In this document: positions 8,514 through 29,981 of the stretch, in pieces | Numbering within the stretch: position 1 is the stretch's first letter | How the letters are laid out: the number at the start of each line of letters is the position of its first letter | Source of the DNA: Burkholderiales bacterium | GTDB taxonomy: Bacteria; Pseudomonadota; Gammaproteobacteria; Burkholderiales; Burkholderiaceae_C | DNA length: 36,103 nt | Reading direction: 5' to 3' | Assembly: GCA_028869095.1 (NCBI GenBank) | Contig: JAGWTE010000004.1 | Span: forward strand, 1-36,103 | Translations under genes and position numbers: made by a program | Notes under the pieces: model-generated | What the model saw: only the letters and a program-made list of their open reading frames with translations | What the model was told of the DNA's origin: nothing | Database searches by the model: none

Positions 8514-10709
8514 ATGACGATACTCGCAATGCGACTCTTTGTGTATCCCATCACGCTTATGTCTCACTACCTTCCCGCAGTCACTTCCCGGCGCCTGGTG
8601 CTGGCGATCGCCGCGCTGCTGGCATTGCTGTTGAGCACGGCCGGCGCATCGCTGTTGAAAGAACAGAGGATCGCGGCCCTGATCACCCAACAGGCTCAGG
8701 ACAATCAGGAGCGCACCGAGCTGTTTGCCGACATCAACGACAACGCCTTCGAGAGCACCCGCAAACTCATCATCTTGCTGACGGCACCGCGCGAAGTCCG
8801 GATGTATGCCCAAGAGGAAATCAACGCCGCCATCCGTCGGCTCGACAGCTCGATGAAGCTCTTGCCCCGCTACATCGACCAGGGCGATCACAACCCGGGC
8901 TTCGTCCTGATCGCCGATTGCCTGCGTCGCTACCAACAGTCTTCGACCCACACGGCCGCGCGCGTCAAGGCCGGCGACATGGCGGGAGCCCATCGCATGA
9001 TGCTCGAGACCACGGAATTTGACCTCTCCAGCCTGATTGGCGCCATCCAAAGCCTGCAGCACGCGGAACAACAACAGCAGGCCCAACGCGTGACCGCCAT
9101 GACGCAGCAACTGGATCGCTACAAGCAGTGGCTGCTGGTACTCAGCGCGACCGGCTTGCTGATCTCGATGGGCTTGTCTTGGTGGATCATCGCCGGCATT
9201 GCCGCACCGCTGCGCGCCGCAGCCAGTGCGGTGCGCAGCCTGGCCAAAGGGGATTACTCCAATCGCTGGACAGTGCAAAGCGGCGGAGAAGTCGGCGAAA
9301 TCGCCACCGCCTTCAACCACCTGGCCGACGAGGTGCAACGCCGCGAACAAGCCCTGCGCGATCTGATCGACATCGATCTGCTGACGGGTCTGGCGCAGCG
9401 CAATCGCTTCTTGTCCGACCATGCGGCCTTGGCCGATGCGGCCCGCCATGATGGCCCCCGCGTGGCCCTGTTCTGCTTCGACATCGAACGCCTGAAATCC
9501 ATCAACGCGGTGCTGGGCTTTGATGCCGGGGATGAGGTCATCGTCCAGGCCGCGCATCGCGCCAGCCAGTTGATTGGCGGCCCCAGCAAACTGGCCCGTC
9601 TGGGCGGTGGCACCTTGGCTGGCGTCATGACCCTGCACGCCGATGAAACCCCCATCGAGCGCGGCCACGCCTTCCAGCGTGCCATGGAGCATCGCATCCG
9701 CTGGCGGGAACACGATCTGGACATCGCCGTCACGGTGGGCCTTGCCTCAGGCCCGGAGCACGGCGCCAGTTTGCATGACCTGCTTCGCCGCGCCGAACAA
9801 GCCCTGTTCGATGCCAAGCGCCAGCGGCGCTCGCTGGTGACCTACAGCCCCTCGATCGAGGCCGCGCGCCTGTCCCACCTGAGCATGGTGTCAGAACTGC
9901 ACCAGGCCATTGAGCAAGGCCACCTGCGCCCCTTCCTGCAGGCCAAGCTGTGTCTGGCCACCAACCGCATCGTGGGTGCCGAAGCGCTGGTACGCTGGCA
10001 CCATCCCGAGCGCGGCATGATCCCGCCGGCCGAATTCATCCCGTTTGCAGAAAGCACCGGGCGGATTGTGGCCATCACCAACTACATGCTCGAACAGTGC
10101 ATTGCGCTGATGCAAAAGCGGTTGCCCGGCATGACAGTCGCCGTCAACGTGTCGACATACGATCTGCGTGACACCACCTTCCCGATGCGCTTGAAGGCAA
10201 CCCTGGAGCGGTATGGCGTTCCCGCCGAGCGCCTTCAGATCGAGATCACGGAAAGCGGCCTGCTGGACAGCGGCGATGTCCCGATTGCCTGCCTGAACGC
10301 CATACGCGAACTGGGCGTCAAAATCGCCATTGACGATTTTGGCACCGGCCAGTCGTCGCTGGCCTATCTGCAGAAACTGCCCGCGCAAGAATTGAAAATC
10401 GACCGTAGCTTCGTCGACCGATCGGATGCCGACCCGCAGCGGCGTGCCTTGCTGCAATCCATCGTGCGTCTGGGCCATGGCCTGGGCATGGTGGTCACCG
10501 CAGAGGGGGTCGAGACCCCGGGCGAGCTGGCCATGTTGCGCGAAGCCGGCTGCAACCTGGCTCAGGGTTACCTCATCGCCAAACCGATGGCCGTGGATGA
10601 CTTTTTAAAGCAGTTTGATCAGTTCAACGCGAGGGGCGCCGACGACAGCTTGGCCAACCTCGCCAGGAGATCTGCGGGGACCTCTTGCACCGTGTTGACC
10701 ACCCCTTGA
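8514..10709 (+). CDS. HAMP - degenerate GGDEF - EAL domain protein, probable c-di-GMP phosphodiesterase
   Basis: N-terminal TM and periplasmic region, second TM (LLVLSATGLLISMGLSWWIIAGIA) and HAMP; GGDEF signature reads GGGTL; EAL motifs intact (AEALVRW, EITES, DDFGTG, KIDRSFV, AEGVET). True start may be downstream (MSHYLPAVTSRR). Confidence 0.9.
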   Translation: MTILAMRLFVYPITLMSHYLPAVTSRRLVLAIAALLALLLSTAGASLLKEQRIAALITQQAQDNQERTELFADINDNAFESTRKLIILLTAPREVRMYAQEEINAAIRRLDSSMKLLPRYIDQGDHNPGFVLIADCLRRYQQSSTHTAARVKAGDMAGAHRMMLETTEFDLSSLIGAIQSLQHAEQQQQAQRVTAMTQQLDRYKQWLLVLSATGLLISMGLSWWIIAGIAAPLRAAASAVRSLAKGDYSNRWTVQSGGEVGEIATAFNHLADEVQRREQALRDLIDIDLLTGLAQRNRFLSDHAALADAARHDGPRVALFCFDIERLKSINAVLGFDAGDEVIVQAAHRASQLIGGPSKLARLGGGTLAGVMTLHADETPIERGHAFQRAMEHRIRWREHDLDIAVTVGLASGPEHGASLHDLLRRAEQALFDAKRQRRSLVTYSPSIEAARLSHLSMVSELHQAIEQGHLRPFLQAKLCLATNRIVGAEALVRWHHPERGMIPPAEFIPFAESTGRIVAITNYMLEQCIALMQKRLPGMTVAVNVSTYDLRDTTFPMRLKATLERYGVPAERLQIEITESGLLDSGDVPIACLNAIRELGVKIAIDDFGTGQSSLAYLQKLPAQELKIDRSFVDRSDADPQRRALLQSIVRLGHGLGMVVTAEGVETPGELAMLREAGCNLAQGYLIAKPMAVDDFLKQFDQFNARGADDSLANLARRSAGTSCTVLTTP

Positions 10710-12238
10710 TAGATGGCGCCAGCATTGCCATCCAAGGTCATTGTGTCCCCTTCTTGCAGCACCGTGTCGCCAATGCGAATGCTGCGACCTGATTCATCCA
10801 GCTGCAACTCGCCACAGCCCACCAGGCAGACCTTGCCCAACTGGCGCGCCACCACCGAGGCATGTGAGGTACGGGCACCACGCTGCGTCAGCAAGCCTTG
10901 AGCCGATTCCAGGGCCGCGATGTCGCTGGTTTCGGCATCCCGCCTGACCAGAATGAATGCAGCACCGTCGGCCTGGCGAGCTTTGGCGCGCTCCTGGTCC
11001 AACACGATCTCGCCAATGGCCACACCGGTGCAGGCTGTGGCCGCATGGGCGAGCGGGGTCAAGGGCTCGCCATCGGGTGACACGACGCGCCGAGACGCCA
11101 GCACGCCGGCATCAAGCCCCTCGGTGCGCGCACGTGCCACCTCCGGGGTGATCAAGCCTTCGTCCAGCATGTCCAAGGCAATGCGCGCGGCCGCCTGGGG
11201 CGTGCGTTTGCCATGGCGGGTCTGCAGCATGTACAGCTGCCCCTCTTGCACCGTGAACTCGATGTCTTGCATGTCCATCAAGGCGTGCTCCAGCTGCCGG
11301 GCCGCGTCTTGCAGGGCTTGCCAGGCTGCGGGCAAGACGGTCGCCAACTCGTCACTGCCGTGGGCACTGCGGCGACCTGACACCACGTCCTCGCCTTGCG
11401 CATTGAACAAAAAGTCCACCCACAGTCGCGGCTCGCCCGTTGCGGGGTCGCGCGTGAACCCCACCCCGGCCCCAGAGCGCCCGCCTGCATTGCCAAACAC
11501 CATGGTCTGCACGGTCACCGCTGTCCCCATCGAATCAGACAGCTGATTGACCCGGCGATACTCGCAGGCCTTGTCCGACTGCCAGGACGCCATCACCGCC
11601 TGGATGGCTTGCACCAGTTGCCGATGCGGATCCTGCGGAAAGGCGTGCCCCGCCCCTTGCTCATACACGGCCAGATACCGGCGCGTGAGCTCCCGCAGTT
11701 CCGAAAAATCCAAGTCCCGTTCATCCCGGCCTGCGGCCAGGGCCAGGGTTTCCGCCTCGAACACCTGGGCATCCAGCCCCGCCACCACTTCGCCATAACT
11801 GGCCACCAGACGGCGGTAGGAGTCCCACACCAAGCGGGGGTTGCCGGTTTGCCTCAAAAAGCCCGGCACAGTGGCATCGCACAGACCGATGTTGAGCAAG
11901 GTTTCCATCATGCCGGGCATGGACACCGGGGCCCCCGATCGCACCGACAGCAACAAGGGACGACGCGGGTCTCCCAGGGTCTGCCCCTGCCGGGTCTGCA
12001 AGGCAGCCAGACCTGCCTGCCAGGTGTCGAGGTGGCTGGCCCGCTCGCGACTGGTTTCATCTGCGCACCAGGCCGTGCCCAACACAAAGGCCGGTGGCAC
12101 GGGCAAGCCGAGGTCCGCCATGCGCAACAGGTTATAGGCCTTGAAGCCCATGCCCTGGGACGTGACCTGGCCTTGCTGTGCAGATCGTTGCTCTGGCGAG
12201 CCACATCCGATGAAGTAGAGCGAGTCGAGCGTGTTCAT
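10619..12238 (-). CDS. PPDK-like protein: N-terminal ATP-grasp plus phosphohistidine swivel domain, no PEP/pyruvate TIM barrel
   Basis: LLLSVRSGAPVSMPGMMETLLNIGL, FTRDPATGEPRLWVDFLFNAQGEDVVSG, MQDIEFTVQEGQLYMLQTRHGKRT and LLTQRGARTSHASVVARQLGKVCLVGC match PPDK; ORF ends at 539 aa. Confidence 0.88.
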   Translation of the reverse strand: MNTLDSLYFIGCGSPEQRSAQQGQVTSQGMGFKAYNLLRMADLGLPVPPAFVLGTAWCADETSRERASHLDTWQAGLAALQTRQGQTLGDPRRPLLLSVRSGAPVSMPGMMETLLNIGLCDATVPGFLRQTGNPRLVWDSYRRLVASYGEVVAGLDAQVFEAETLALAAGRDERDLDFSELRELTRRYLAVYEQGAGHAFPQDPHRQLVQAIQAVMASWQSDKACEYRRVNQLSDSMGTAVTVQTMVFGNAGGRSGAGVGFTRDPATGEPRLWVDFLFNAQGEDVVSGRRSAHGSDELATVLPAAWQALQDAARQLEHALMDMQDIEFTVQEGQLYMLQTRHGKRTPQAAARIALDMLDEGLITPEVARARTEGLDAGVLASRRVVSPDGEPLTPLAHAATACTGVAIGEIVLDQERAKARQADGAAFILVRRDAETSDIAALESAQGLLTQRGARTSHASVVARQLGKVCLVGCGELQLDESGRSIRIGDTVLQEGDTMTLDGNAGAIYQGVVNTVQEVPADLLARLAKLSSAPLALN

Positions 12239-14181
12239 GAGGTGATGCCCGTTTGGGTGAAGACCAATTCGCGCAGGCGGTAACCCGCGACCAACAATCG
12301 ATCAGAGGCCAATTCCAAAGTCTGAGCCAGGTCATTGACCAGCATCAGCGAGGGCGCATCGTCCACCACACGCAAGATGGTGCGGCGAGCGTGGCGCAGC
12401 AATTCATCACACTGACGCTCGGCATGCAAGACCGCCCACAAGGCGTCCAGGAAGGCATCGTTGTCTGCCGCATCACTGCCCGCCCCCAAGGTGCGCGCAA
12501 TGGTCAAGGCCTTGACATGATCCTGTGTCGACTGCAGCACGGTCTGGGCCAGCCGGGACAAGGCCTGCCGCACATCGCCATTCCAGCCCTTTTGATGGTG
12601 ATCGGCGATCAAGCTGATCAGGAAGGCGGCCTCTTCCAGTGCGTCCGCCACATCGTCAGACAGCCCCATCAGTTGCGCGGCCGGTTGCCAACGCGGTTGG
12701 CGTGCCGCCTCGTCACGCGCCTGCATGACCAAGTGATCAGCGCGACGCTCCCACACCTTGGCGCGTGCAGCCAGGTCCTGCGCCACATCGCGCAAGCCAT
12801 CGTGGCGGTGCGACAGCGCGTCGCTGACGGCTTGAGCCAGGGTCTGACAATAAGCGGCATGCTCATCGAGCAGGTCAAACTCCGCACCCCGCTTTTGCAC
12901 CTGCCGCGTCAGCAACATGCGGGTCTCGTCAGCCACCAAGGCCAGGGGTTGTCCGTTCAACAGGGCCTTGCAAGACAGACGCATCACGTCCAGCAAGAAG
13001 GCTTGCGCATTGGCCTCGCCCAAGACGGCATCCAGCCGATCACCGATTCGGAAGGCGCCCTCGCCCGCGGCCTCCATCGCACGATAGATGAGCTGCTCCC
13101 CCCCGGCCTTCAACCACGCCATGTGGCCGATCTCCAGCCGAGCCGCTTCCGTGAGCACCGCAATGGCGGGGGACTTGCCGATGAACGCCTGCAAGCGCTT
13201 GCGAGCACGGTTCCAGTCAATCAGGAAAACGATGCGAGCGCCGATGCCTTCCAGCGCGGTCGCCACCCCTTCGTCATCCGGACAGTCAAAGGTGGCGGTG
13301 CCCACGGTGTAGGCCACGCCCTGGTTCAAATCAGCGGACACGCGCGACTCGGGCGTCGACCAGCGCGCCCCCAGCGACGTGAGTTGCGCCTGAAAGAAAG
13401 CAAACCGGCTGCGATGCAGATCTGAATAGGTCAAGGTGATGGCCAGGTTCTGAACCTGGATCACCAGCACATGCGCATCGTTGGTGCCAATGTCATTTTG
13501 AAGCATCAGGCGGTCACCGTCGCGCGTGGCGGCGGTATCCAGGCCGGGGTGATCGAGCTTGAGCATCGCCGTGCGGTGCAGCCCTCGCATGAAGGCACTG
13601 ACCAATGGACGGTCTTCGTCGTGGAGCAGCCAGACATGCGCCCCATCCACTTCTTCGCTGGCCAGGTCCGCCGCCAAGCGGTTGATCTGTTTGTGCAGAT
13701 CCATGATCAAGATGTGAAGGCTGTCGCCGTCGGCGCGCTTGCCATGCGTCAGGCTGCGAAGTTGCGCCACATCAAGCTGCTCGCCCTTCAACGCGGCCAG
13801 CCAGTCCAGCCAATGCCGCACGCGCAGGTGGGGCTCTGCATCGTTGGTTGTGGACTCCAGCACCGGCCGCGCCATGATGACCAGGTCATCGTGCAGACAC
13901 TGAAGCAGGCGTTCCAGATCGGGTACCAACAGCGCATCGTCAATGCGACTGGCCCCCGCCACCAACTCCAGCAACCAAGACCCTGAGGTGATGCCCGCCG
14001 CCGCCAGCTCGCGCGACAAGTCCATGACCCCTTGGTGCGCATGTTCTGCGTGCACACAAGCCGCTTGCAACACCGTCAGGTACAGCTTGAGGCGATCATT
14101 GGCCAACAAAGCGGCCTTGACCCACACAGGCAACAACAACCCTCGCTGTCCCAGCGATACCAAGGCCTGATTCTTGTTCAT
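12235..14181 (-). CDS. Large protein with PhoU/DUF47-like helical C-terminal region, uncharacterised N-terminus
   Basis: ORF 12235..14196 with likely start MNKNQALVSLGQRG; 4-nt overlap with the PPDK-like gene; C-terminal helical pattern (DDVADALEEAAFLISLIADHHQ...ILRVVDDAPSLMLVNDLAQTLELASDRLLVAGYRLRELV) is PhoU/DUF47-like. Confidence 0.7.
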   Translation of the reverse strand: MNKNQALVSLGQRGLLLPVWVKAALLANDRLKLYLTVLQAACVHAEHAHQGVMDLSRELAAAGITSGSWLLELVAGASRIDDALLVPDLERLLQCLHDDLVIMARPVLESTTNDAEPHLRVRHWLDWLAALKGEQLDVAQLRSLTHGKRADGDSLHILIMDLHKQINRLAADLASEEVDGAHVWLLHDEDRPLVSAFMRGLHRTAMLKLDHPGLDTAATRDGDRLMLQNDIGTNDAHVLVIQVQNLAITLTYSDLHRSRFAFFQAQLTSLGARWSTPESRVSADLNQGVAYTVGTATFDCPDDEGVATALEGIGARIVFLIDWNRARKRLQAFIGKSPAIAVLTEAARLEIGHMAWLKAGGEQLIYRAMEAAGEGAFRIGDRLDAVLGEANAQAFLLDVMRLSCKALLNGQPLALVADETRMLLTRQVQKRGAEFDLLDEHAAYCQTLAQAVSDALSHRHDGLRDVAQDLAARAKVWERRADHLVMQARDEAARQPRWQPAAQLMGLSDDVADALEEAAFLISLIADHHQKGWNGDVRQALSRLAQTVLQSTQDHVKALTIARTLGAGSDAADNDAFLDALWAVLHAERQCDELLRHARRTILRVVDDAPSLMLVNDLAQTLELASDRLLVAGYRLRELVFTQTGITS

Positions 14182-14257
14182 GGTGAATGCTCCCAATGCT
14201 TGCCGATTTCAGTCTGGGTCGCTTGTGTGACGGCGAAGTGAAAGGCGCCTCAAGCTG

Positions 14258-14386: not shown

Positions 14387-15259
14387 GTGATGCACATGGC
14401 CTTGATCGGATGGGACTGTCAGATTGCCCCGGGCGCAGACACCGACCTCGCCCTGCGCCAGATGGTCGCTGCCTGCCTGCGGCAGATCGTGCCCAACGCC
14501 CAGGCCATCGCTGCAGGCGTGGCCAACCCAGAGCACTTGCACCAACTTCGCATTGGGCTGCGCGGGCTCCGCAGCGCCCTGCATGTGTTCAGTGACTGGT
14601 CCAGCGCAGTGGCCCCCGACTGGCAGCCTCGATTGGGCGAGGTGTTCATCCAACTGGGCCGCACACGGGATCGCGACATGCTGCAAGCCTCCGTGCTGCC
14701 TGATTTGCGGGCTGTCCATGCCCCGCTGGCTGAGTTGCCACCGGCTCCGCCACGCGACCTCCTCGCCAGGGACGTGCTGAACCACCCGGATTGCACCCAG
14801 TTGTTTCGTGATCTGATCGCCTTCGCCGACGGTTCGCTGCTGCCCTCTCGCACCTCGCCCAAGCAGTCAAGAAAGAGGCTGAGGCAGGCAGCGGGTGCGC
14901 GCTTCGCGCATCTTCATCGTCAACTTTTAAGAGATGCCAAGGCCTACCCGCAACTCAATGAAGTCCAGCGACACCGCGTTCGCAAGCGCCTCAAACGGCT
15001 GCGCTATGGCGTGGAGTTGTTGGCCTCGGTGTTCCCGAAAGGCGCCGTCAAGCCCTATCTGGCGCACTTGCAGCCAGCGCAGGCGATCCTCGGTCAGTAC
15101 AACGATCTGGTGGTGGCTGAACAGGTGTTCAAGCAACAGCTGCCAGCCGATCCACGCGCGTGGTTTGCGCTGGGCTGGATCGCAGCCCGGCAGGCCGCAT
15201 TGCGACAAGACGCGAGCCGCGCCCTGATCCGATTGGCCCGGGCGCCCACGTTCTGGTGA
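14387..15259 (+). CDS. CHAD domain-containing protein (no CYTH domain)
   Basis: EHLHQLRIGLRGLRSALHVF and LNEVQRHRVRKRLKRLRYGVELLASVF...AQAILGQYNDLVVAEQ: conserved basic/His helices of CHAD. Confidence 0.88.
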   Translation: MMHMALIGWDCQIAPGADTDLALRQMVAACLRQIVPNAQAIAAGVANPEHLHQLRIGLRGLRSALHVFSDWSSAVAPDWQPRLGEVFIQLGRTRDRDMLQASVLPDLRAVHAPLAELPPAPPRDLLARDVLNHPDCTQLFRDLIAFADGSLLPSRTSPKQSRKRLRQAAGARFAHLHRQLLRDAKAYPQLNEVQRHRVRKRLKRLRYGVELLASVFPKGAVKPYLAHLQPAQAILGQYNDLVVAEQVFKQQLPADPRAWFALGWIAARQAALRQDASRALIRLARAPTFW

Positions 15260-15295: not shown

Positions 15296-15916
15296 CTACT
15301 TCTTGGCCCGGCCACGTCGCACCGGCTTGGCACCGCTCAATGCATGCTGCTGGTTGAGTTGCTCCAACCACAGCAAAGATTCTGCCTGAGACAGAAACCG
15401 CCGCAGGTAGTCGGGAGACAGGCCGCGCATCAAGCTCAGCGAACGCAGCATCAGCATGTGCGAATTGAGCGGGCCGGCGTTTTCAGGCCCGCGCCCTATG
15501 GCTTGATCCACCTGCTGTTCTGCCGCGATCTTGGACCACACCTCACTGAAGCCGCGCACGCTCTTCAACTCTGGCCGGCCCACACTGGCCCCACCGACTG
15601 CGCCCTCGCTGCTGTCGTGCGTGCGGCTGTGGATGTAGCGATTCAAATCGGCCAAGGGGGTGCTGCCAGCCTTGGGCAGTCTGGCCACGACGCGATGGGC
15701 GTCTTCCACGCGTTCTGGGCCACCGGATTGTGCCCATCGGCCGGTGTACGCCGTCAAGGCGTCTTGCAGCTTGCCCGCCAAGATCTGCCGCACCGCTTCA
15801 GGCTGGGCCTGCATGCGCTGAGCCAGCACCTGCATGTAATGAAAGCGAGCCGGGTCCAGACGATCGGCCCCCTCGCTTTGCAAGGCCTGCAGCGATGCCA
15901 GCAAGGACTCACTCAT
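15296..15916 (-). CDS. DUF2894 domain-containing protein
   Basis: MSESLLASLQALQSEGADRLDPARFHYMQVLAQRMQAQPEAVRQILAGKLQDALTAY; recognised as DUF2894; basic C-terminus KPVRRGRAKK; last gene of the four-gene operon. Confidence 0.7.
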   Translation of the reverse strand: MSESLLASLQALQSEGADRLDPARFHYMQVLAQRMQAQPEAVRQILAGKLQDALTAYTGRWAQSGGPERVEDAHRVVARLPKAGSTPLADLNRYIHSRTHDSSEGAVGGASVGRPELKSVRGFSEVWSKIAAEQQVDQAIGRGPENAGPLNSHMLMLRSLSLMRGLSPDYLRRFLSQAESLLWLEQLNQQHALSGAKPVRRGRAKK

Positions 15917-16565
15917 GGGCGTCAGGCTGGGTGTTGGCAGACCGCGGCACCGGCGCCATCTCAACGCGGCGATTCAGCGCCCGCCCCTTTTCATCGCTGT
16001 TGGAGGCCACTGGCTGCTCCGCCCCAAAGGCCGCAGCAAACACCTGATTTGAAGGCATGCCTTCTTCGATCAAAGCACGGGTCACCGTCAGGGCGCGCTG
16101 GGCCGACAGCTCCAGGTTGTCGGCAAAGCGACGGTCTTTGCCATCACGCAGGCGCTTGTCATCGGTGAAGCCGCTGACCATCAACATCTCATTGCGCTCG
16201 CCCAGATAGACCCGCAGGGGATTCACCAGGCTCTTCAGAATCTGCCGGCCATCAGGACGCAATTCATCCGAATTCACCGGGAACAACACGCTGCCGCTGA
16301 TGCCAATGCGGCCATTGTTCAAGGTGACGCGCCCCGTTTGCAAGGGGATGGCCAAGGCCTTTTCCAAGGCCATGCGGCGCTGCTCTTCCGCGCGGCGTTT
16401 TTCGATCTCGGCATTCAGGTTGGACACCAGGTCCAGCTGGACCACCAGCACCCCCACCAGGATCAGCACGAAAGCCCCCAGCAAACCCGCCATCAGGTCA
16501 CCGAAGACGGCCCAGACCGGCGCCGTCTGCTCGATGGCATCGTCCTGTTCGTCCACATCAATCAT
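15909..16565 (-). CDS. OmpA/MotB-like peptidoglycan-binding stator subunit (ZorB-like architecture)
   Basis: Single N-terminal TM with Asp at its start (VWAVFGDLMAGLLGAFVLILVGVLVVQL) and OmpA-like domain (VLFPVNSDELRPDGRQIL...VSGFTDDKRL...NLELSAQRALTVTRAL...NRRVEM). Confidence 0.87.
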   Translation of the reverse strand: MIDVDEQDDAIEQTAPVWAVFGDLMAGLLGAFVLILVGVLVVQLDLVSNLNAEIEKRRAEEQRRMALEKALAIPLQTGRVTLNNGRIGISGSVLFPVNSDELRPDGRQILKSLVNPLRVYLGERNEMLMVSGFTDDKRLRDGKDRRFADNLELSAQRALTVTRALIEEGMPSNQVFAAAFGAEQPVASNSDEKGRALNRRVEMAPVPRSANTQPDAHE

Positions 16566-18733
16566 CGAGCGCCACCCACGGCTTGCATGGCCGGCTTGCT
16601 GTGCAGGCGGCGCATGTCTTCCACGATGCCTTGTTGCGAGCTGATGCTCAGGTCAATCACCTCGCGCGCCTGGGCCACGTAGTAGGCCAGCTGTTCGTCG
16701 CTGCGCGTCATCGATTGCTGGATGGCGCCTTCCATGCGCTGCAGGCTGTCGATCAGCTTCTCGTTGGTCGCGTTGAACAGCTGGACGCCATGGCTGAAGG
16801 ACTCGCCCAGGCTGGCCAACTCCACGGCGCTGCTGGTCACGTGCGCGGCCACGTCGGCCACCTTGCCGGCTTGTGCGCTCAGCGATTCAGACAACTGGCT
16901 GCCCGCCTTGTCCAGCACCTGGGCAGCCGAGTTGACCATCGATTCAATCATCGCCTGCTGCTGGCCCGAAGCCTGGTTGATGGTCTGCAGCAAGGCACTC
17001 ATCTGCGCCATCATCGCCGTGCGCTCTTCCAGCGCGAGGTTGTCACGCGTGGTCAGCTGGCTCATTTCCTGGCGCAATTGCGTGATCACGGCCGCCGCAG
17101 CTTGGGGCACCTCGGCGGCGGTCTGCAGCAAGCGGGTCAAGGGGGTTTCCAGGGCCGATCCCAAGGCTGCCAAATGGCCCGCCACGGCGGCTTGCAACTC
17201 ATCCAATCGGTTCACGGCAGCCTGGCCCCGTGCGGCCTCCTCGTCTCGCAGCGCATTCAGTTCGGTACGCCACACGCTGGCCAGTTGGTCCATACGCTCG
17301 CCTTGGGATTGAATCCACGCGGACTCGGTCTCCATGCGCGAACGAATCAAGGCCTCAGACTGGTTCACCAATTGGGTCACGTCGCTCAAGGTCTGGCTGA
17401 CGTGTTCGCTGGCTTGTTCTGTGATCTGGCCGGCGGTGCTCTCCAAGGTCTGGCAGATCGCTTGCTGTTGCGCCATGGTCTGTGCACCCACTTGCTGCCA
17501 CTCCGTCGACAGCTGGGCGGCCATCTCACGCAGGGACTGCGTCCAGGCTGCCATGCGCTGGCGATCCGCCTCGGCCTGATCGGTTTGCGATCGGTTCGCG
17601 GTCTCGTTGATCGATGCCAACACCGCGTTGGAGCGCTGCTCGAACACCTCGGTGAACGACTTCAAGGCACGCTCGACCCCGTCCACCAATTGGGTGCTGC
17701 TTTGCGTGTGGGTCTGCAGCGCCGTCATCCACGTGTCGGACACCGTGCGTGCGGTGGACTCAAACTGCGACGACAAGCCCGTCAATTGGGTTTGCGTGGT
17801 GTCGATCAGGCGCTGGTGGCTGCGTTGCGACTCTTGCGCGATCTCGACCATCGCCGACGCCACCACGGGCTGGATGCTCTCACCCGCTGCTTTGGCGCTG
17901 GCGGTCAGGCTGTCTTTCAAAGACTTCCCAACCGTGTCAGACAGCTCGGTATAAGCCACCGACACATCGCGGTGGAACTGCGCTTGCTGCCCCAGCAACT
18001 GCTGATTCAACTGATCGCTGCGGCGCTCCAGCCCATCCATCATGGCCTGCAGCTTGTTGACGACCTCGGGCAGGGCATGGGCTTGCTGTTGCAGCGCCTT
18101 GAAGGTCTCCTGGCGTTGATGGGTCAGGGACAAGGGGCGGAACACCGTGGCAATGCGGGTGTCCAGCTGACGGGCCACATCCACCCGCTCACGGCGGCTG
18201 ATGGCCGAGATCAAACCCAGCATGGCGGACGCGGCCACACCGGCCACCGAGGTGCCAAACGACAAGCCCAAGCCTTTGATAGGCGCGGCCAAGGCCGAGC
18301 GAATGGCTTGCAGATCCGACGAGCCTTCCAGCGCGAACACCGCGCCCTTGAAGGTCACCACCATGCCCAAGAAAGTGCCCAGCATGCCCAGCATGACCAA
18401 GAGCCCCACCAGGTAGGGCGTCAACGCCGGACCGGGCAAAGCCACGCGCTCCCCCTCAATGCGCAGCCGCACCGGATTTTGCAATGAAGGATGCAAGCGC
18501 TGCAACCAGGTGCCGAATTCGGTCAAGGGCTGCGGGATGTCGGCCAGCGCATCCACCAAGGTCGCGGTGGCCGCACGAAACTGCTTGAGCTCCAAGGCAC
18601 CCAGCAAGTAGACAGCGGCGATCAGCGCCGTCATGGTCAAGGCCAACCAGCTGACGCCGACAAAGCCCACGCCCACCCAAACCACGGCCAACAAGCCCAT
18701 CGCAAAGGCCACAGCAAAAACGATTCTGTTCAT
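16562..18733 (-). CDS. DUF802 MotA/ExbB-like membrane protein with long coiled-coil cytoplasmic tail (ZorA-like architecture)
   Basis: N-terminal TM pair, PYLVGLLVMLGMLGTFLGMVVTFKGAVFAL and GLGLSFGTSVAGVAASAMLGLISAISRRER motifs, then roughly 500 aa of Gln/Ala-rich predicted helix. Confidence 0.85.
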   Translation of the reverse strand: MNRIVFAVAFAMGLLAVVWVGVGFVGVSWLALTMTALIAAVYLLGALELKQFRAATATLVDALADIPQPLTEFGTWLQRLHPSLQNPVRLRIEGERVALPGPALTPYLVGLLVMLGMLGTFLGMVVTFKGAVFALEGSSDLQAIRSALAAPIKGLGLSFGTSVAGVAASAMLGLISAISRRERVDVARQLDTRIATVFRPLSLTHQRQETFKALQQQAHALPEVVNKLQAMMDGLERRSDQLNQQLLGQQAQFHRDVSVAYTELSDTVGKSLKDSLTASAKAAGESIQPVVASAMVEIAQESQRSHQRLIDTTQTQLTGLSSQFESTARTVSDTWMTALQTHTQSSTQLVDGVERALKSFTEVFEQRSNAVLASINETANRSQTDQAEADRQRMAAWTQSLREMAAQLSTEWQQVGAQTMAQQQAICQTLESTAGQITEQASEHVSQTLSDVTQLVNQSEALIRSRMETESAWIQSQGERMDQLASVWRTELNALRDEEAARGQAAVNRLDELQAAVAGHLAALGSALETPLTRLLQTAAEVPQAAAAVITQLRQEMSQLTTRDNLALEERTAMMAQMSALLQTINQASGQQQAMIESMVNSAAQVLDKAGSQLSESLSAQAGKVADVAAHVTSSAVELASLGESFSHGVQLFNATNEKLIDSLQRMEGAIQQSMTRSDEQLAYYVAQAREVIDLSISSQQGIVEDMRRLHSKPAMQAVGGAR

Positions 18734-19431: not shown

Positions 19432-19463
19432 GATTCTATCAACCTGCCGTCAGCCCCCGCCCC

Positions 19464-20000
19464 TCACTTCACCCGCTGCTTTTCCAGCTTGCGGGCCAGG
19501 GTCCGGCGGTGCATGCCCAGGCGCCGGGCGGTCTCGGAGATGTTGAAGCCCGTCTCGGCCAAGGTTTCGTGGATGCGCTCCCACTCCAGGGTCTTGATGG
19601 AGGTGGTCCGCTCGGTCAACTCCACATCCGTGTCGCCCTCCACTTTGGAGAACGCCTCTTCGATGTCGTCCGTGTTGGCGGGCTTGGCCAGGTAATGGCG
19701 CGCCCCCAGTTTGATCGCTTCGACCGCCGTGGAGATGCTGGCATAGCCCGTCAGCACCACGATCACCATGTGCGGGTCGTGCGCATGCAAGTCTTGCACG
19801 CAGGCCAAGCCCGAATCGCCCCCCGCCAGCTTCAAGTCCACCACGGCATAGCCCGGCCGGTGCGTTTGCAGCAGCGCTTTGACCTCGGCCAGGCTGGCCG
19901 CCCGCAGCACGGCGTAGCCGCGGCGTTCGAACGAGCGCGACAGGGTGCGAGCAAAGGCCTCGTCGTCTTCGACAATGAGCAATTGGCGTGGGGCTTCCAT
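19464..20000 (-). CDS. regA: Response regulator, RegA/PrrA/ActR family
   Basis: LLIVEDDEAFARTLSRSFERRGY...VVDLKLAGGDSGL...YLAKPANTDDIEEAF and C-terminal Fis-type HTH (NISETARRLGMHRRTLARKL). Confidence 0.93.
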   Translation of the reverse strand: MEAPRQLLIVEDDEAFARTLSRSFERRGYAVLRAASLAEVKALLQTHRPGYAVVDLKLAGGDSGLACVQDLHAHDPHMVIVVLTGYASISTAVEAIKLGARHYLAKPANTDDIEEAFSKVEGDTDVELTERTTSIKTLEWERIHETLAETGFNISETARRLGMHRRTLARKLEKQRVK

Positions 20001-20006
20001 GGGTCG

Positions 20007-21338
20007 CTATTCTGAGGTCATCAAAGAAGCTAGGGGCAAGGTGATGACCACTTCCGCACCGCCATAGGGCCGGTTCATGGCTTCAATGCGCCCGCCCAAG
20101 GTCCGCGCCACGTTCACCGACAAGAACAGGCCCAAGCCACCACCGGTTCGTCCCTTGCTGGACTCATACGGCTTGCCAAACCGCTGCAACATCTCAGGTG
20201 TGAAGCCCGGCCCTTCGTCCTGCACACGCAGCGTCAGCGTGTCGTCCTGGCAGCTGGCAATGATGCGCACCCGCCCTTGCGGCGAGGCCTCCAGCGCGTT
20301 GTCCAGCACGTTGTCGATCATTTGCTTGAGGGCGGTGTCAGAAATGAAGGGCACATCGGCCAGGTGTTCGCGATCAAACTCCAAGACCTTGACCGGGCGC
20401 GTCTGGCGCCAGTTGTCCACCAAGTCATCCAGGAAGTCGTGCAGCGTGGTGACCTCGGGGGCCTCGCCCCGGGTTTCGCCCGCCGATTGCAAGATGCCGG
20501 TGACGATGGCCTTGCAGCGGCTGACCTGCACCTGCATTTGCTCGATCTCTTCACGCAATTCGGGCTCGGCCGCAAAGGGCGTCATGCGGGCCCAGTCACC
20601 CAGGATCACCGACAAGGTCGCCAAGGGCGTGCCCAACTCGTGAGCCGCCCCCGAGGCCAGCAAGCCCATGCGGACGATGTGTTCTTCTTCTGCCGCGCGC
20701 TGGCGCAGGTCGGCCAGCCGCGCATCACGTTGGCGCAGGTTGCGGCCAATGCGCCCGATGAAAATCACCAGCAAGGACGCGTTGATCAGGAAGCAGGCCA
20801 GCAGCCCTCCCACATAGTGCGCCGATGGCGTGGGGCCGACCGCCTCGGGCAAGGCCAGCGGGTGATGCCATTGCGTGAGCGCCACGAAGCACAGGCTGGT
20901 CACCACCACCATGGCCCAGGTGTAGCGGGGCACCAGCAAGACCGAGCCCACGGCCACCTGCAAGAGGTAGAGGTAAATGAAGGGGTTGGCGCTGCCACCC
21001 GAGTAGTAAAGCTGCCCCGTCAGCACGGCCACATCCACCAGCAGGCCGGCAAACAACTCGCCATTGCTGACCGGCAAGGCCAGTCGGTAGCGCAGCCAGC
21101 TCGCCACGTTGAACACCGCCAGCACTGCCAACAAGGTGACCATTTCAACCAGCGGCAGGGGCACGTCCAGCAAGAACTCGACGATCAGGATCGTGAGCAA
21201 TTGGCCCCCCACCGCCAACCAGCGCATCTGGATCAACTGCAGCAGGTTGTTGCTGTGCGCCAGGCGCTCGGGCACCAGGGCGACCTCGCCCAAAGGATGG
21301 AGCTGAGCGCCAGGATCAGTGTCGCGCTGGCTCGGCAT
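20007..21338 (-). CDS. regB: Redox sensor histidine kinase, RegB/PrrB/ActS family
   Basis: H-box AAHELGTPLATLSVI; quinone-site-like GGSANPF; conserved Cys in VSRCKAIVTGIL; upstream of regA. Confidence 0.93.
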   Translation of the reverse strand: MPSQRDTDPGAQLHPLGEVALVPERLAHSNNLLQLIQMRWLAVGGQLLTILIVEFLLDVPLPLVEMVTLLAVLAVFNVASWLRYRLALPVSNGELFAGLLVDVAVLTGQLYYSGGSANPFIYLYLLQVAVGSVLLVPRYTWAMVVVTSLCFVALTQWHHPLALPEAVGPTPSAHYVGGLLACFLINASLLVIFIGRIGRNLRQRDARLADLRQRAAEEEHIVRMGLLASGAAHELGTPLATLSVILGDWARMTPFAAEPELREEIEQMQVQVSRCKAIVTGILQSAGETRGEAPEVTTLHDFLDDLVDNWRQTRPVKVLEFDREHLADVPFISDTALKQMIDNVLDNALEASPQGRVRIIASCQDDTLTLRVQDEGPGFTPEMLQRFGKPYESSKGRTGGGLGLFLSVNVARTLGGRIEAMNRPYGGAEVVITLPLASLMTSE

Positions 21339-22137
21339 GGCTTGCGCGTTTGTCAGCAAGGCGACGCAGACGCCGCTCGTCGGCCACCACATAACCCAGC
21401 GCACCGGCCGTCATCGCGGCCAAGGCGAACCAGGTCAGGGCATAGACCAGATGGTTGTTCGTGAAACGCAGAACCGTCAGGCCCGGCCGAGGCCATGTGG
21501 GGGTCACAGTGGAAGCAGGACGGGACGCCGGCTGATCGGGCGCGGCCACATCGATGAAATAAGGCGCCACCGGCTGGCCGGCCAGGCCTTGTGCCGCCGC
21601 CATGGCCAGCACATCGCGCGAATACCAACGGCCCTGTGTGCCGTCGTTCTTTTGCAAGGCACTGCCACCGGGCTCGGACCAGCGCAGCAGGCCAACCACG
21701 GTCTGCTCACCCGTGGGCTCCGTGGCGCGCCGTTTGGATGGCTCGCGCCATTCGGGCGGCACAAAGCCCCGATTGACCCACACCCAAAAACCTTGCTCGG
21801 TGCGCAGCGGTGTCAGCACCCAGTAGCCCCCCCCCAGTTCGGTACTGGCCCGCACCAGGGTTTCCTGATCATGCGCGAACTGGCCACGCACGCTCAGGCG
21901 CCGGTATTCGTCGGCCTCGCGTTTCAGCGACATCCACGCCGCCGGCCCGGGCCCCATCGCGGGGGCGCCATGCACATTGCGTTCGACCTGCGCGATGAGC
22001 GCTTCCTTCCAGGCCAGGCGCTTGACTTGCCAGATGCCCAAGGACGTGAAAGCCGCAAAAGCCGCAGCGGCCGCGATGAACATCGCGGCCAGCGTGCGGC
22101 TAGAACGAGGGGTGTGCGGGTGTGTGGTCAGGGTCAA
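21316..22137 (-). CDS. SURF1 family cytochrome oxidase assembly protein
   Basis: AFTSLGIWQVKRLAWKEALIAQVE...YRRLSVRGQF...VNRGFVPPEWR...NNHLVYALTWFALA. Confidence 0.9.
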   Translation of the reverse strand: MTLTTHPHTPRSSRTLAAMFIAAAAAFAAFTSLGIWQVKRLAWKEALIAQVERNVHGAPAMGPGPAAWMSLKREADEYRRLSVRGQFAHDQETLVRASTELGGGYWVLTPLRTEQGFWVWVNRGFVPPEWREPSKRRATEPTGEQTVVGLLRWSEPGGSALQKNDGTQGRWYSRDVLAMAAAQGLAGQPVAPYFIDVAAPDQPASRPASTVTPTWPRPGLTVLRFTNNHLVYALTWFALAAMTAGALGYVVADERRLRRLADKRASHAEPARH

Positions 22138-22508
22138 GGCATGTTGCGCATGGCCTGAGGATCCATGCTGGGCATCATGTTGGTGTTGAGATGGTAGAGC
22201 ACCCAGATCGAACCCGACAACATGATCACCACCAGCGCCGTGGTGAAGACCATGGCCAGCAGCGACCAGCCACCTTCCACCTTGGCATTCAAGTGCAGGA
22301 AGTAGACCATGTGCACCACCATCTGCACGGCAGCAAAGCCCAGGATCACAAAGGCCGTCAGTTTTGACGAAGGCAAGACCTTGCCCATCACCAACCAGAA
22401 GGGAATGGCCGTCAGGACCACGGACAGGATGAAACCGGTCAAATAGCCCTTGTAAGAGGCGTGGTAGCCGCCCTCTTCTTCGTGGTGATTGTGTTGATCG
22501 TGACTCAT
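22134..22508 (-). CDS. cyoD: Cytochrome o ubiquinol oxidase subunit IV
   Basis: [41 protein letters not shown]...[14 protein letters not shown]; 124 aa. Confidence 0.93.
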
Positions 22509-23143
22509 GGCAAAACGCCCATCAGGTAGACAAAAGTGAACACACCGATCCAGACCAGATCGAGGAAGTGCCAGAACATGGACAGGCACATCAGGCGGCG
22601 TTTGTTTTCTGCGGTCAAGCCCAGCTTGGAGACCTGCAACATCAACGTGATCAGCCAGATCGAGCCAAAGGTGACGTGCAGGCCGTGCGTGCCGACCAGG
22701 GTGAAGAAGGCCGACAGGAAGCCGCTGCGCCAAGGGCCGGCACCTTCGTGGATCAGGTGTGCAAACTCGGTCAATTCCAGGCTCAAAAAACCCAGGCCGA
22801 ACAAGCCGGTGATGGCCAGCCAGCCCAGCACGCCCTTTTTGCTGCCGTTTTGCATCGCGATCATGGCAAAGCCATAGGTGATCGACGAGAACAGCAGCAA
22901 GGCCGTGTTGACCGCCACGATGGGCAGCTCGAACAAATCCGCCCCCGAAGGGCCGGCCGCGTAGCTGCGACCCAGCACGGCGTACACGGCAAAGAGCACC
23001 GCGAACATCAGGCAGTCGCTCATCAGGTAGAGCCAAAAGCCCAGGAGCGTGCCTTGTTGTGGATGATGGTCGCCGTTGTCAAAGAAGACCGGCGCACCGT
23101 TGGCGGACGTGAAGGCCGCAGTGTGTGTAGAAGCGTTAGCCAT
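22505..23143 (-). CDS. cyoC: Cytochrome o ubiquinol oxidase subunit III
   Basis: [24 protein letters not shown]...[20 protein letters not shown]...[21 protein letters not shown]. Confidence 0.95.
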
Positions 23144-23167
23144 GATGTTTACCAAAACCTCCGACGA

Positions 23168-25168
23168 TCAGGCTGCCGTAGCCAGGTGCGACGGGTCGCG
23201 AGCGTGCTCGCTGCGCGCCACCTCGTCTGCCGGGATGTAGAAGTCACGGTCGTAGTTGAACGTGTGCACGATGACGGCGATCACGACGGCCGCAAAGCCC
23301 AGTGCCGAGAACAACCACATGTGCCAGATCAGCGCAAAGCCCATGGCCGTGGCCAGCATCGCGATCACGAAACCAGCAGCCGTGTTTTTGGGCATGTGGA
23401 TGGGCTTGAAGCCCACCATCGGGCGCTGCGCGCCGCGTTGCTTCATGTCGTGCCAGGCATCGTTGTCATGCACGATGGGCGTGAACGCGAAGTTGTAGTC
23501 AGGTGGCGGCGAAGCGGTGGACCACTCCAGCGTACGGCCATTCCAGATGTCGCCCGTTTCGTCACGCAGTTGATCACGCTTGAGGTAGCTGACCAGCAAC
23601 TGCACGCCAAAGGCGGCAATGCCCAAAGCCACGATGCCCGCGCCCACCGCCGCGATCTGGAACCAGATCTGCAAAGAAGGATCGTCAAAGTGGTTCATGC
23701 GACGGGTGATGCCCATCAAGCCCAGCACATACAGCGGTGTGAAGGCCACCCAGAAGCCGATGAACCAGCACCAGAACGAGACCTTGCCCCAGAAGGCGTC
23801 CAGGCGATAGCCGAAGGCCTTGGGGAACCAGAAGTTGATGCCGGCAAACAGGCCAAACACCACGCCCCCAATGATCACATTGTGGAAGTGAGCGATCAGG
23901 AACAGGCTGTTGTGCAGCACGAAGTCCGCAGCCGGCACAGCCAGCAGCACGCCGGTCATACCACCGATGGCGAAGGTCACCATGAAGCCCACGGTCCACA
24001 GCATCGGCACTTCAAACTTGATGCGGCCACGGTACATCGTGAACAGCCAGTTGAAGATCTTGGCGCCGGTCGGGATCGAGATGATCATCGTCGTGATGCC
24101 GAAGAAGGAGTTGACGCTGGCGCCTGACCCCATGGTGAAGAAATGGTGCAGCCACACCAGGTAGGACAAGATCGTGATCACGACCGTGGCATAAACCATC
24201 GAGGCATACCCAAACAGCTTCTTGCCGCTGAACGTGGAGACCACTTCAGAAAAGATGCCAAACACGGGCAGCACCAGGATGTAGACCTCAGGGTGGCCCC
24301 AGATCCAGATCAGGTTCACGTACAACATGGGGTTGCCGCCCAGGTCGTTGGTGAAGAAGTTGGTGCCCAGGTAACGGTCTGCCGTCAACAGGGCCAGGGT
24401 CGCGGCCAGCACAGGGAAGGTCGCGACGATCAGCACGTTGGTGCACAGCGAGGTCCAGGTGAAGACGGGCATCTTCATCATGGTCATGCCCGGCGCACGC
24501 ATCTTGATGATGGTGGCGATCAGGTTGATGCCCGACAGCGTGGTCCCCACCCCCGCTATCTGCAGCGACCACAGGTAGTAGTCCACCCCCACATCCGGGC
24601 TTTGCATCAAGCCCGACAGCGGTGGGTAAGCCAGCCAGCCGGTCTTGGCGAATTCGCCGATGAACAGGGACACCATCACCAGGCCGGCGCCACCCGCCGT
24701 CATCCAGAAGCTGAAGTTGTTCAGGAAGGGAAAGGCCACGTCGCGCGCGCCGATCTGCAGCGGCACCACGTAGTTCATGAAGCCCGTCACCAAAGGCATG
24801 GCGACGAAGAAGATCATGATCACGCCGTGGGCGGTGAAGACCTGGTCAAAGTGATGCGGCGGCAAAAAGCCGGCGTTGTCGCCAAAGGCCATGGCTTGCT
24901 GGGCACGCATCATCACCGCGTCAGCAAAGCCGCGCAGCAACATGACCAGACCCATCACGATGTACATGATGCCGATCTTCTTGTGGTCGATGCTGCAGAT
25001 CCAGTCGCGCCACAGGGGGCCCCACAGGCGCATCTTGGTGAGCAAGGCCAACAAGCCTGCGCCACCCAGTGCCACTGCGGCAAAGGTGGCGACCAGGATC
25101 GGCTCGTGGTACGGGATCGCCTCAAGGCTGAGGCGTCCGAAGATCAATTGACTGAGTTCGGGGGACAT
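23168..25168 (-). CDS. cyoB: Cytochrome o ubiquinol oxidase subunit I
   Basis: 666 aa haem-copper oxidase; [54 protein letters not shown]. Confidence 0.97.
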
Positions 25169-29035: not shown

Positions 29036-29073
29036 GGCGCCTGATGCCTCAAGCGAGGGGCAGGTCAGGCGCC
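29036..29073. terminator. Stem-loop at the convergent 3' ends of peroxiredoxin and methyltransferase
   Basis: GGCGCCTGA ... TCAGGCGCC perfect 9-bp arms with further internal complementarity; no strong T-tract. Confidence 0.45.
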
Positions 29074-29981
29074 TTGTAAACCAGCACCTTGAGCGAGCGG
29101 TCGCTGGACACATCGCCAAAGACCGCCGGGTTCTGCACCCGCTCCACAAAGCTCAACTGCGGTGCTTGCGCTTGCATGAGGTCTCGCAAGAAGGCCACGC
29201 CCAGTTTGGGCGAGTTCAAACACAGCAAGGCGTGCCCACCTGGTTTCAGCAGATCAGGCAGACGGCGCATCAAGCGGGCGTAGTCCTTCTCGGCAATGAA
29301 GCTGCCCTTTTGATACGAGGGCGGATCCGAGATGATCAAGTCATAGGGCCCACTGCGGGTGATCTTGCCCCACGAACTGAAGACGTCATGGGGCATGAAA
29401 CTGGCTCCGGCCGTGAGCCCGTTGAGCTGGTGGTTTTGCTTGCCGATCCCCAAGGCGCCCCCGCTCATGTCCATGTTGATCACTTGCCTGGCACCGGCCT
29501 GCAAGGCCACCACCGAGAACGCACAGGTGTAGGCAAACAGGTTGAGCACCTTCAGCCCAGGGCGGGCGGCCACATGCTCGCGCACCCAGCGTCGGCCCTC
29601 GGCCATGTCGACAAAGAAGCCATGGTTCTGGCCCCTGAGCACATGCACCCGATAGCGCGCGCCCTGCTCGGTGACCACATGGGGATCGGGCACGCTGCCG
29701 GCCATCAGCCTCGTGTCAGCTTGCGCTTCGTGTCGATGCTGGAAGACCCAGTTCAACGGCTGGTCGGGAGCCAACTGCTGCCAACGTTCAGCCAGAGCTG
29801 CGCCAATGGTGGCCAGTTCATCGTCGGTCGCCGGCAGGAAGCTGGTCAACACCCACACGGGTGGAAAACAATCCAGCGTCCATTGTTCGCAGCCTGGGTG
29901 CAGGCCACCGCGTCCATGGAACACCCGCTGGGCATCAGAGGGCAGGCTCATCTGGGCGATGGCGTCGAGCAAAGCTTGCAT
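29049..29981 (-). CDS. Class I SAM-dependent methyltransferase (RlmI/RlmK-like)
   Basis: VLNLFAYTCAFSVVALQAGARQVINMDMS...DLIISDPPSYQKGSF...HALLCLNSP. Confidence 0.85.
   Translation of the reverse strand: MQALLDAIAQMSLPSDAQRVFHGRGGLHPGCEQWTLDCFPPVWVLTSFLPATDDELATIGAALAERWQQLAPDQPLNWVFQHRHEAQADTRLMAGSVPDPHVVTEQGARYRVHVLRGQNHGFFVDMAEGRRWVREHVAARPGLKVLNLFAYTCAFSVVALQAGARQVINMDMSGGALGIGKQNHQLNGLTAGASFMPHDVFSSWGKITRSGPYDLIISDPPSYQKGSFIAEKDYARLMRRLPDLLKPGGHALLCLNSPKLGVAFLRDLMQAQAPQLSFVERVQNPAVFGDVSSDRSLKVLVYKAPDLPLA

Follow-up and report, generated by a model that had tools for sequence, protein, structure and literature searches.

Genes of the locus and assignment to type III Zorya

The window analyzed here, i.e., the whole stretch of 36,103 nucleotides, holds an operon of four minus-strand genes with zorG as the first gene, followed by zorA, zorB, and zorF (Table 1). 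All three gene junctions are overlaps, amounting to 4 nt between the stop of zorG and the start of zorA, again 4 nt between zorA and zorB, and 8 nt between zorB and zorF, with the zorF ATG located at positions 15914-15916. ZorA3 combines a MotA/ExbB-like motor domain (residues ~1-200) with a cytoplasmic tail of ~520 aa. In ZorB3, D23 is followed by a single transmembrane (TM) helix and an OmpA/MotB peptidoglycan-binding domain. A first-pass annotation had already described the pair of a 723-aa and a 218-aa ORF, with DUF802 in the large and OmpA in the small protein, as well as a long helical tail. Coordinates of the pair, on the minus strand, and both domain assignments were confirmed, and the ~520-residue tail is helix-compatible by composition and periodicity, since it contains only 6 Pro and 21 Gly and shows a hydrophobic period of 3.6. 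A promoter scan of the locus found nothing, and the count of terminator-like sites at the locus was not above chance. The names ZorF and ZorG follow PADLOC-DB 2.0.0, in which DUF3348 is ZorG and DUF2894 is ZorF. The two labels are swapped between sources, DUF3348 being ZorF and DUF2894 being ZorG in Payne 2021 (PMC8565338) and in PMC11890865.

Table 1. Features of the type III Zorya locus and of its surroundings in the window
Feature	Coordinates	Strand	Match or basis
DUF3348 protein ZorG, 225 aa	18730..19407	(-)	PF11828 E 7e-54; PDLC00658 ZorG3 E 8.5e-65
ZorA3, 723 aa	16562..18733	(-)	PDLC00648 E 1e-265; PF05650 DUF802; 8VVN ZorA match
Tail-tip motif RSDEQLAYYVAQAREVID, ZorA residues 677-694	16652..16705	(-)	type III ZorA alignment
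ZorB3, 218 aa	15909..16565	(-)	PDLC00651 E 2e-107; PF00691 OmpA
DUF2894 protein ZorF, 206 aa from ATG 15916	15296..15916	(-)	PF11445 E 5e-54; PDLC00652 ZorF3 E 9e-63
CHAD-domain gene	14387..15259	(+)	PF05235 5e-38
PPDK-like PEP-utilising protein, 539 aa, coupled to 653-aa protein	10619..14196	(-)	weak PhoU_div match (653-aa protein)
RegA/RegB-like response regulator and histidine kinase, next to SURF1-like and cytochrome oxidase genes	19464..25168	(-)	named by resemblance
Gene with methyltransferase-type match	29049..29981	(-)	PADLOC mad2 3e-18

All four PADLOC type III Zorya HMMs matched proteins of the locus, with E values from 1e-62 to 1e-265. The 2021 definition of type III Zorya is a zor pair with a DUF3348 and a DUF2894 gene on its flanks, of which 6,401 instances were given (Payne 2021, PMC8565338). 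Since genes of these two families flank ZorA3/ZorB3 on both sides, we consider it virtually certain that the locus is a complete canonical type III Zorya anti-phage operon in the order zorG-zorA-zorB-zorF, carried by an Aquabacterium-group MAG. Compared with type III, all four components, their adjacency, the pore Asp, and the OmpA domain of ZorB are alike without substantive difference, and Burkholderiales as hosts fit the distribution reported in PMC11890865. The locus is an ordinary member of an already described system. Phage protection by this locus would be expected by analogy, the experimental basis being the type III Zorya of Stenotrophomonas nitritireducens, which made E. coli phage-resistant (PMC8565338).

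The first-pass annotation had seen a ZorAB-like pair outside any canonical Zorya locus, which may be undescribed. The likeness to ZorAB was borne out by PADLOC, by the 8VVN motor-profile match, and by the position of D23. Its two qualifiers had to be given up, as the type III partners DUF3348 and DUF2894 lie directly on both sides of the pair and the name type III Zorya, together with experimental proof of its anti-phage activity, dates from 2021 (PMC8565338). The reported lack of ZorC, ZorD, and ZorE was correct, none of them being present at the locus (genes: DUF3348, DUF2894, CHAD, PhoU-like, PPDK-like, RegBA-like pair), but it is no sign of a non-Zorya system, since this absence is typical for type III. 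Likewise, PADLOC returned no hit for nine of the ten other window genes and only mad2, methyltransferase-type, for the tenth. Types I and II share with the locus the motor pair, the long ZorA tail, the peptidoglycan-binding ZorB, and a pore Asp at position 21-24. They differ in possessing ZorC, ZorD, or ZorE, whereas the locus has DUF3348 and DUF2894 as partners and another tail-tip sequence.

The ZorAB motor

Hydropathy analysis placed TM segments of ZorA near residues 4-22, 108-126, and 157-175, and the single TM segment of ZorB at residues 24-42, directly after D23. The Pfam matches cover residues 320-370 of ZorA (PF05650 DUF802, E 4.8e-12) and residues 94-199 of ZorB (PF00691 OmpA, E 5e-18). 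The conservation of D23, on which the first-pass annotation had made its motor reading depend, was found to be complete in an alignment of 18 ZorB homologues. In ZorA, T120, T161, and S162 are invariant among 20 aligned proteins. In the ZorB structures solved for types I and II, the pore Asp is D24 and D21, respectively, motors of both types combine this Asp with a Ser/Thr ring, and a 5:2 ZorA:ZorB stoichiometry was shown for both (PMC11890865). The conserved ZorB D23 and ZorA Ser/Thr residues are in line with such a type I/II ring.

Matches of full-length ZorA to the PDB mainly reflected coiled-coil composition, and therefore the motor part was searched alone. When 16 type III motor domains were combined into a profile, the sole significant PDB chain was the Shewanella ZorA of 8VVN (E 1.3e-4), the alignment spanning the pore helices. 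The NCBIfam model ZorA_2 matched ZorA and no other protein of the genome (E <= 0.001), albeit with a score below the model cut-off (35 vs 100 bits). PF01618 (MotA_ExbB) found five other proteins in a genome-wide search and did not match ZorA, neither there nor among Pfam hits up to E = 1. As PF01618 misses ZorA while ZorA_2 finds only ZorA, membership in the TolQR/ExbBD/MotAB families was rejected. MotAB/PomAB resemble the pair in motor fold and MotB-type OmpA domain, but differ by the long cytoplasmic tail of ZorA, by matching PF01618, and by flagellar genes, which are absent alongside the locus. To TolQR/ExbBD, the pair shows a distant motor homology with ExbB/TolQ-type pore helices, in contrast to the OmpA peptidoglycan-binding domain of ZorB, the long ZorA tail, and the own operon partners.

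Distribution and genomic neighborhood

Of 37 congeneric genomes, 18 have DUF3348 above cut-off, precisely these 18 also have DUF2894 above cut-off, and DUF3348 matches extended to 89 of 300 genomes of the family and 8 of 369 of the class. The DUF2894 Pfam model also scored above cut-off in the Corynebacterium glutamicum control genome, which is remote from the usual hosts. Wherever a complete locus was examined, six more distant genomes included, the gene order was G-A-B-F on one strand. A fifth conserved gene was not found, and since no other flanking family occurred at more than 3 of 28 loci (236 flanking ORFs), the system appears to consist of these four genes. None of the window's own neighbor genes accompanies Zorya III in the complete loci examined. 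The CHAD-domain gene, convergent with zorF and 36 bp from its end, is accordingly regarded as a neighbor and not as a component, being absent alongside the compared type III loci. The congener G013 matches Aquabacterium olei, whose Zorya III copy resides on plasmid pTB101, in a stretch also holding a DNA methyltransferase gene, an AbiEii-type gene, an integron integrase, and an IS3 transposase. Type III Zorya is an accessory, movable module. A recent foreign origin by composition was rejected for the present copy, with GC being flat across the locus. Viral carriage was rejected as well: a pattern scan of IMG/VR gave no relative, and phage records yielded only partial OmpA-domain matches of <=35% identity.

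In the congener G021, the PPDK-like, PhoU-like, RegA-like, RegB-like, and SURF1-like genes are ordered as in the window. The gap from the PhoU-like to the RegA-like gene measures ~600 bp in G021 vs ~5.3 kb in the window, and G021 carries its Zorya III on another contig. Apart from a 145-aa ORF (L139:3873-4310, minus strand), G021 has nothing at the site that the CHAD gene and Zorya III occupy in the window. DNA similarity of the window to six relatives breaks off at 19462-19464, where the RegA-like gene ends. The RegA/RegB-like region is an ordinary respiratory cluster retained in several congeners. The PPDK-like gene and its PhoU_div-matching partner stay together in G021 and G019 (L139, L145) and possibly form an uncharacterised phosphate-linked two-gene unit. 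In L140 and L141, relatives of the mad2-matching protein were found near the RegA-like gene, at the place where the window has Zorya III.

The ZorA tail tip, the partner proteins, and phage arrest

Type III ZorA proteins of the aligned set range from 555 to 987 aa, with a conserved motor part and a mid-tail varying in length and sequence. Regardless of this variation, the motif RSDEQL[AK]YYVxQARE[VI]ID is near-invariant in 20/20 type III ZorA and always situated 19-31 residues from the C-terminus. This 18-residue tip is the most conserved tail stretch of that length, with a mean top-residue frequency of 0.99. Among the loci found with the NCBIfam type I/II ZorA models, it was present in 4/4 type III loci and absent from the non-type-III ones, a comparison set small in true type I/II proteins, of which only L217 passes its curated cut-off. 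A sequence search with the tail tip gave no match, and a description of the motif was not found in the Zorya literature drawn on here. On grounds of this conservation, we tentatively propose the tip as contact point for ZorF and/or ZorG, an assignment that we hold to be about as open to doubt as to belief. Alternatively, the tip could cap, seed, or close a pentameric coiled-coil tail.

The partner proteins themselves gave few clues by homology. The AlphaFold model of ZorG is all helical (pLDDT 83), and this good model had no fold match with E < 0.1 in the PDB or among viral models. The model of ZorF is poor (pLDDT 67 overall); its N-terminal helices are predicted with confidence but its C-terminal part is not, and the model had no match with E < 0.1 in the PDB. 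HMM, PDB sequence profile, and fold searches revealed no nuclease, helicase, or other enzyme match for either protein. Mean pairwise identities were 38% for ZorF and ZorG each, 70% for ZorB, and 60% for the ZorA motor part, in samples differing somewhat between the components; by these values, ZorF and ZorG appear to be the fastest-diverging ones. Within ZorF, the invariant core is AGPLNSH, and a conserved acidic/His catalytic set does not stand out. Its C-terminus is basic in nearly all of 27 homologues, with a median net charge of +6 over the last 20 residues. While structures and effectors are published for types I and II, with the type II effector ZorE being a nickase (PMC11890865) and ZorC/ZorD acting as cytoplasmic effectors (review PMC12409349), the same literature has only DUF assignments for the type III proteins ZorF and ZorG.

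If built like the type I/II complexes of known structure, ZorA and ZorB would assemble in a 5:2 ratio into a peptidoglycan-anchored, ion-driven motor in the inner membrane, which may be activated when a phage alters the envelope. From there, the signal would travel along the long helical ZorA tail to the cytoplasm, where the tail tip may bind or release ZorF and/or ZorG. These type III-specific proteins would then act in place of ZorC/D or ZorE. We consider this explanation as a whole, comprising type III Zorya identity, motor, signalling tail, and tip docking, to be probable. It is a good deal more doubtful, yet conceivable, that the motor drives a tail of free length and only the last ~45 residues engage ZorF/ZorG, which would stop phages without a known nuclease fold. 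Type III might arrest phages through partner proteins that act on DNA or through the ion flow as such.

A housekeeping motor of the cell envelope, akin to TolQR/ExbBD/MotAB and with a long tail by chance, would share the distant fold, and the periplasmic domain of ZorB indeed also matches MotB, PomB, and Pal-type domains. The operon moreover often lies among housekeeping genes, adjoined here by the RegBA-like pair and cytochrome oxidase genes and following a gyrB-like gene in L055, L056, and L059. This explanation is nevertheless highly improbable considering the patchy presence across congeners, family, and class, the differing neighborhoods with a plasmid-borne copy in A. olei, the detection by PF01618 of five proteins of the same genome other than ZorA, and the experimentally shown phage resistance conferred by type III (PMC8565338).

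Two further explanations concern the step downstream of the motor. Activated ZorAB might pass ions and depolarise the cell, with ZorF and ZorG being regulators only. This stands near the view of Payne 2021, in which both were proposed as ZorAB regulators (PMC8565338), and is in line with the invariant pore residues and the missing enzyme matches of ZorF and ZorG. However, types I and II use dedicated cytoplasmic effectors, i.e., the ZorE nickase (PMC11890865) and ZorC/D (PMC12409349), and the invariant, type III-specific tail tip speaks for a signal transfer in the cytoplasm, at a great distance from the pore, so that we regard depolarisation as rather unlikely. The same degree of reserve applies to the other explanation, in which ZorF or ZorG, with a new fold, would be a cryptic effector that binds or cuts nucleic acid and meets injected DNA at the tail tip, to which it is brought. 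The basic ZorF C-terminus, the fast divergence of both proteins, and their unmatched folds would suit such an effector, whereas basic tails are common and the AGPLNSH core of ZorF offers no evident acidic/His catalytic set.

The locus itself adds a further copy to a system already described, and the lead on type III signalling is its useful by-product. A near-invariant motif of 18 residues ending a variable tail provides a sharp and cheap handle on this signalling and points to where a ZorF/ZorG contact may be sought.

Self-BLAST of the ZorA proteins of L085 and L077 for tail duplication gave nothing beyond the full self-match. On visual inspection of the alignment, a long segment seems to occur twice in the tail of the 987-aa ZorA of L085 (L085:9369-12332).
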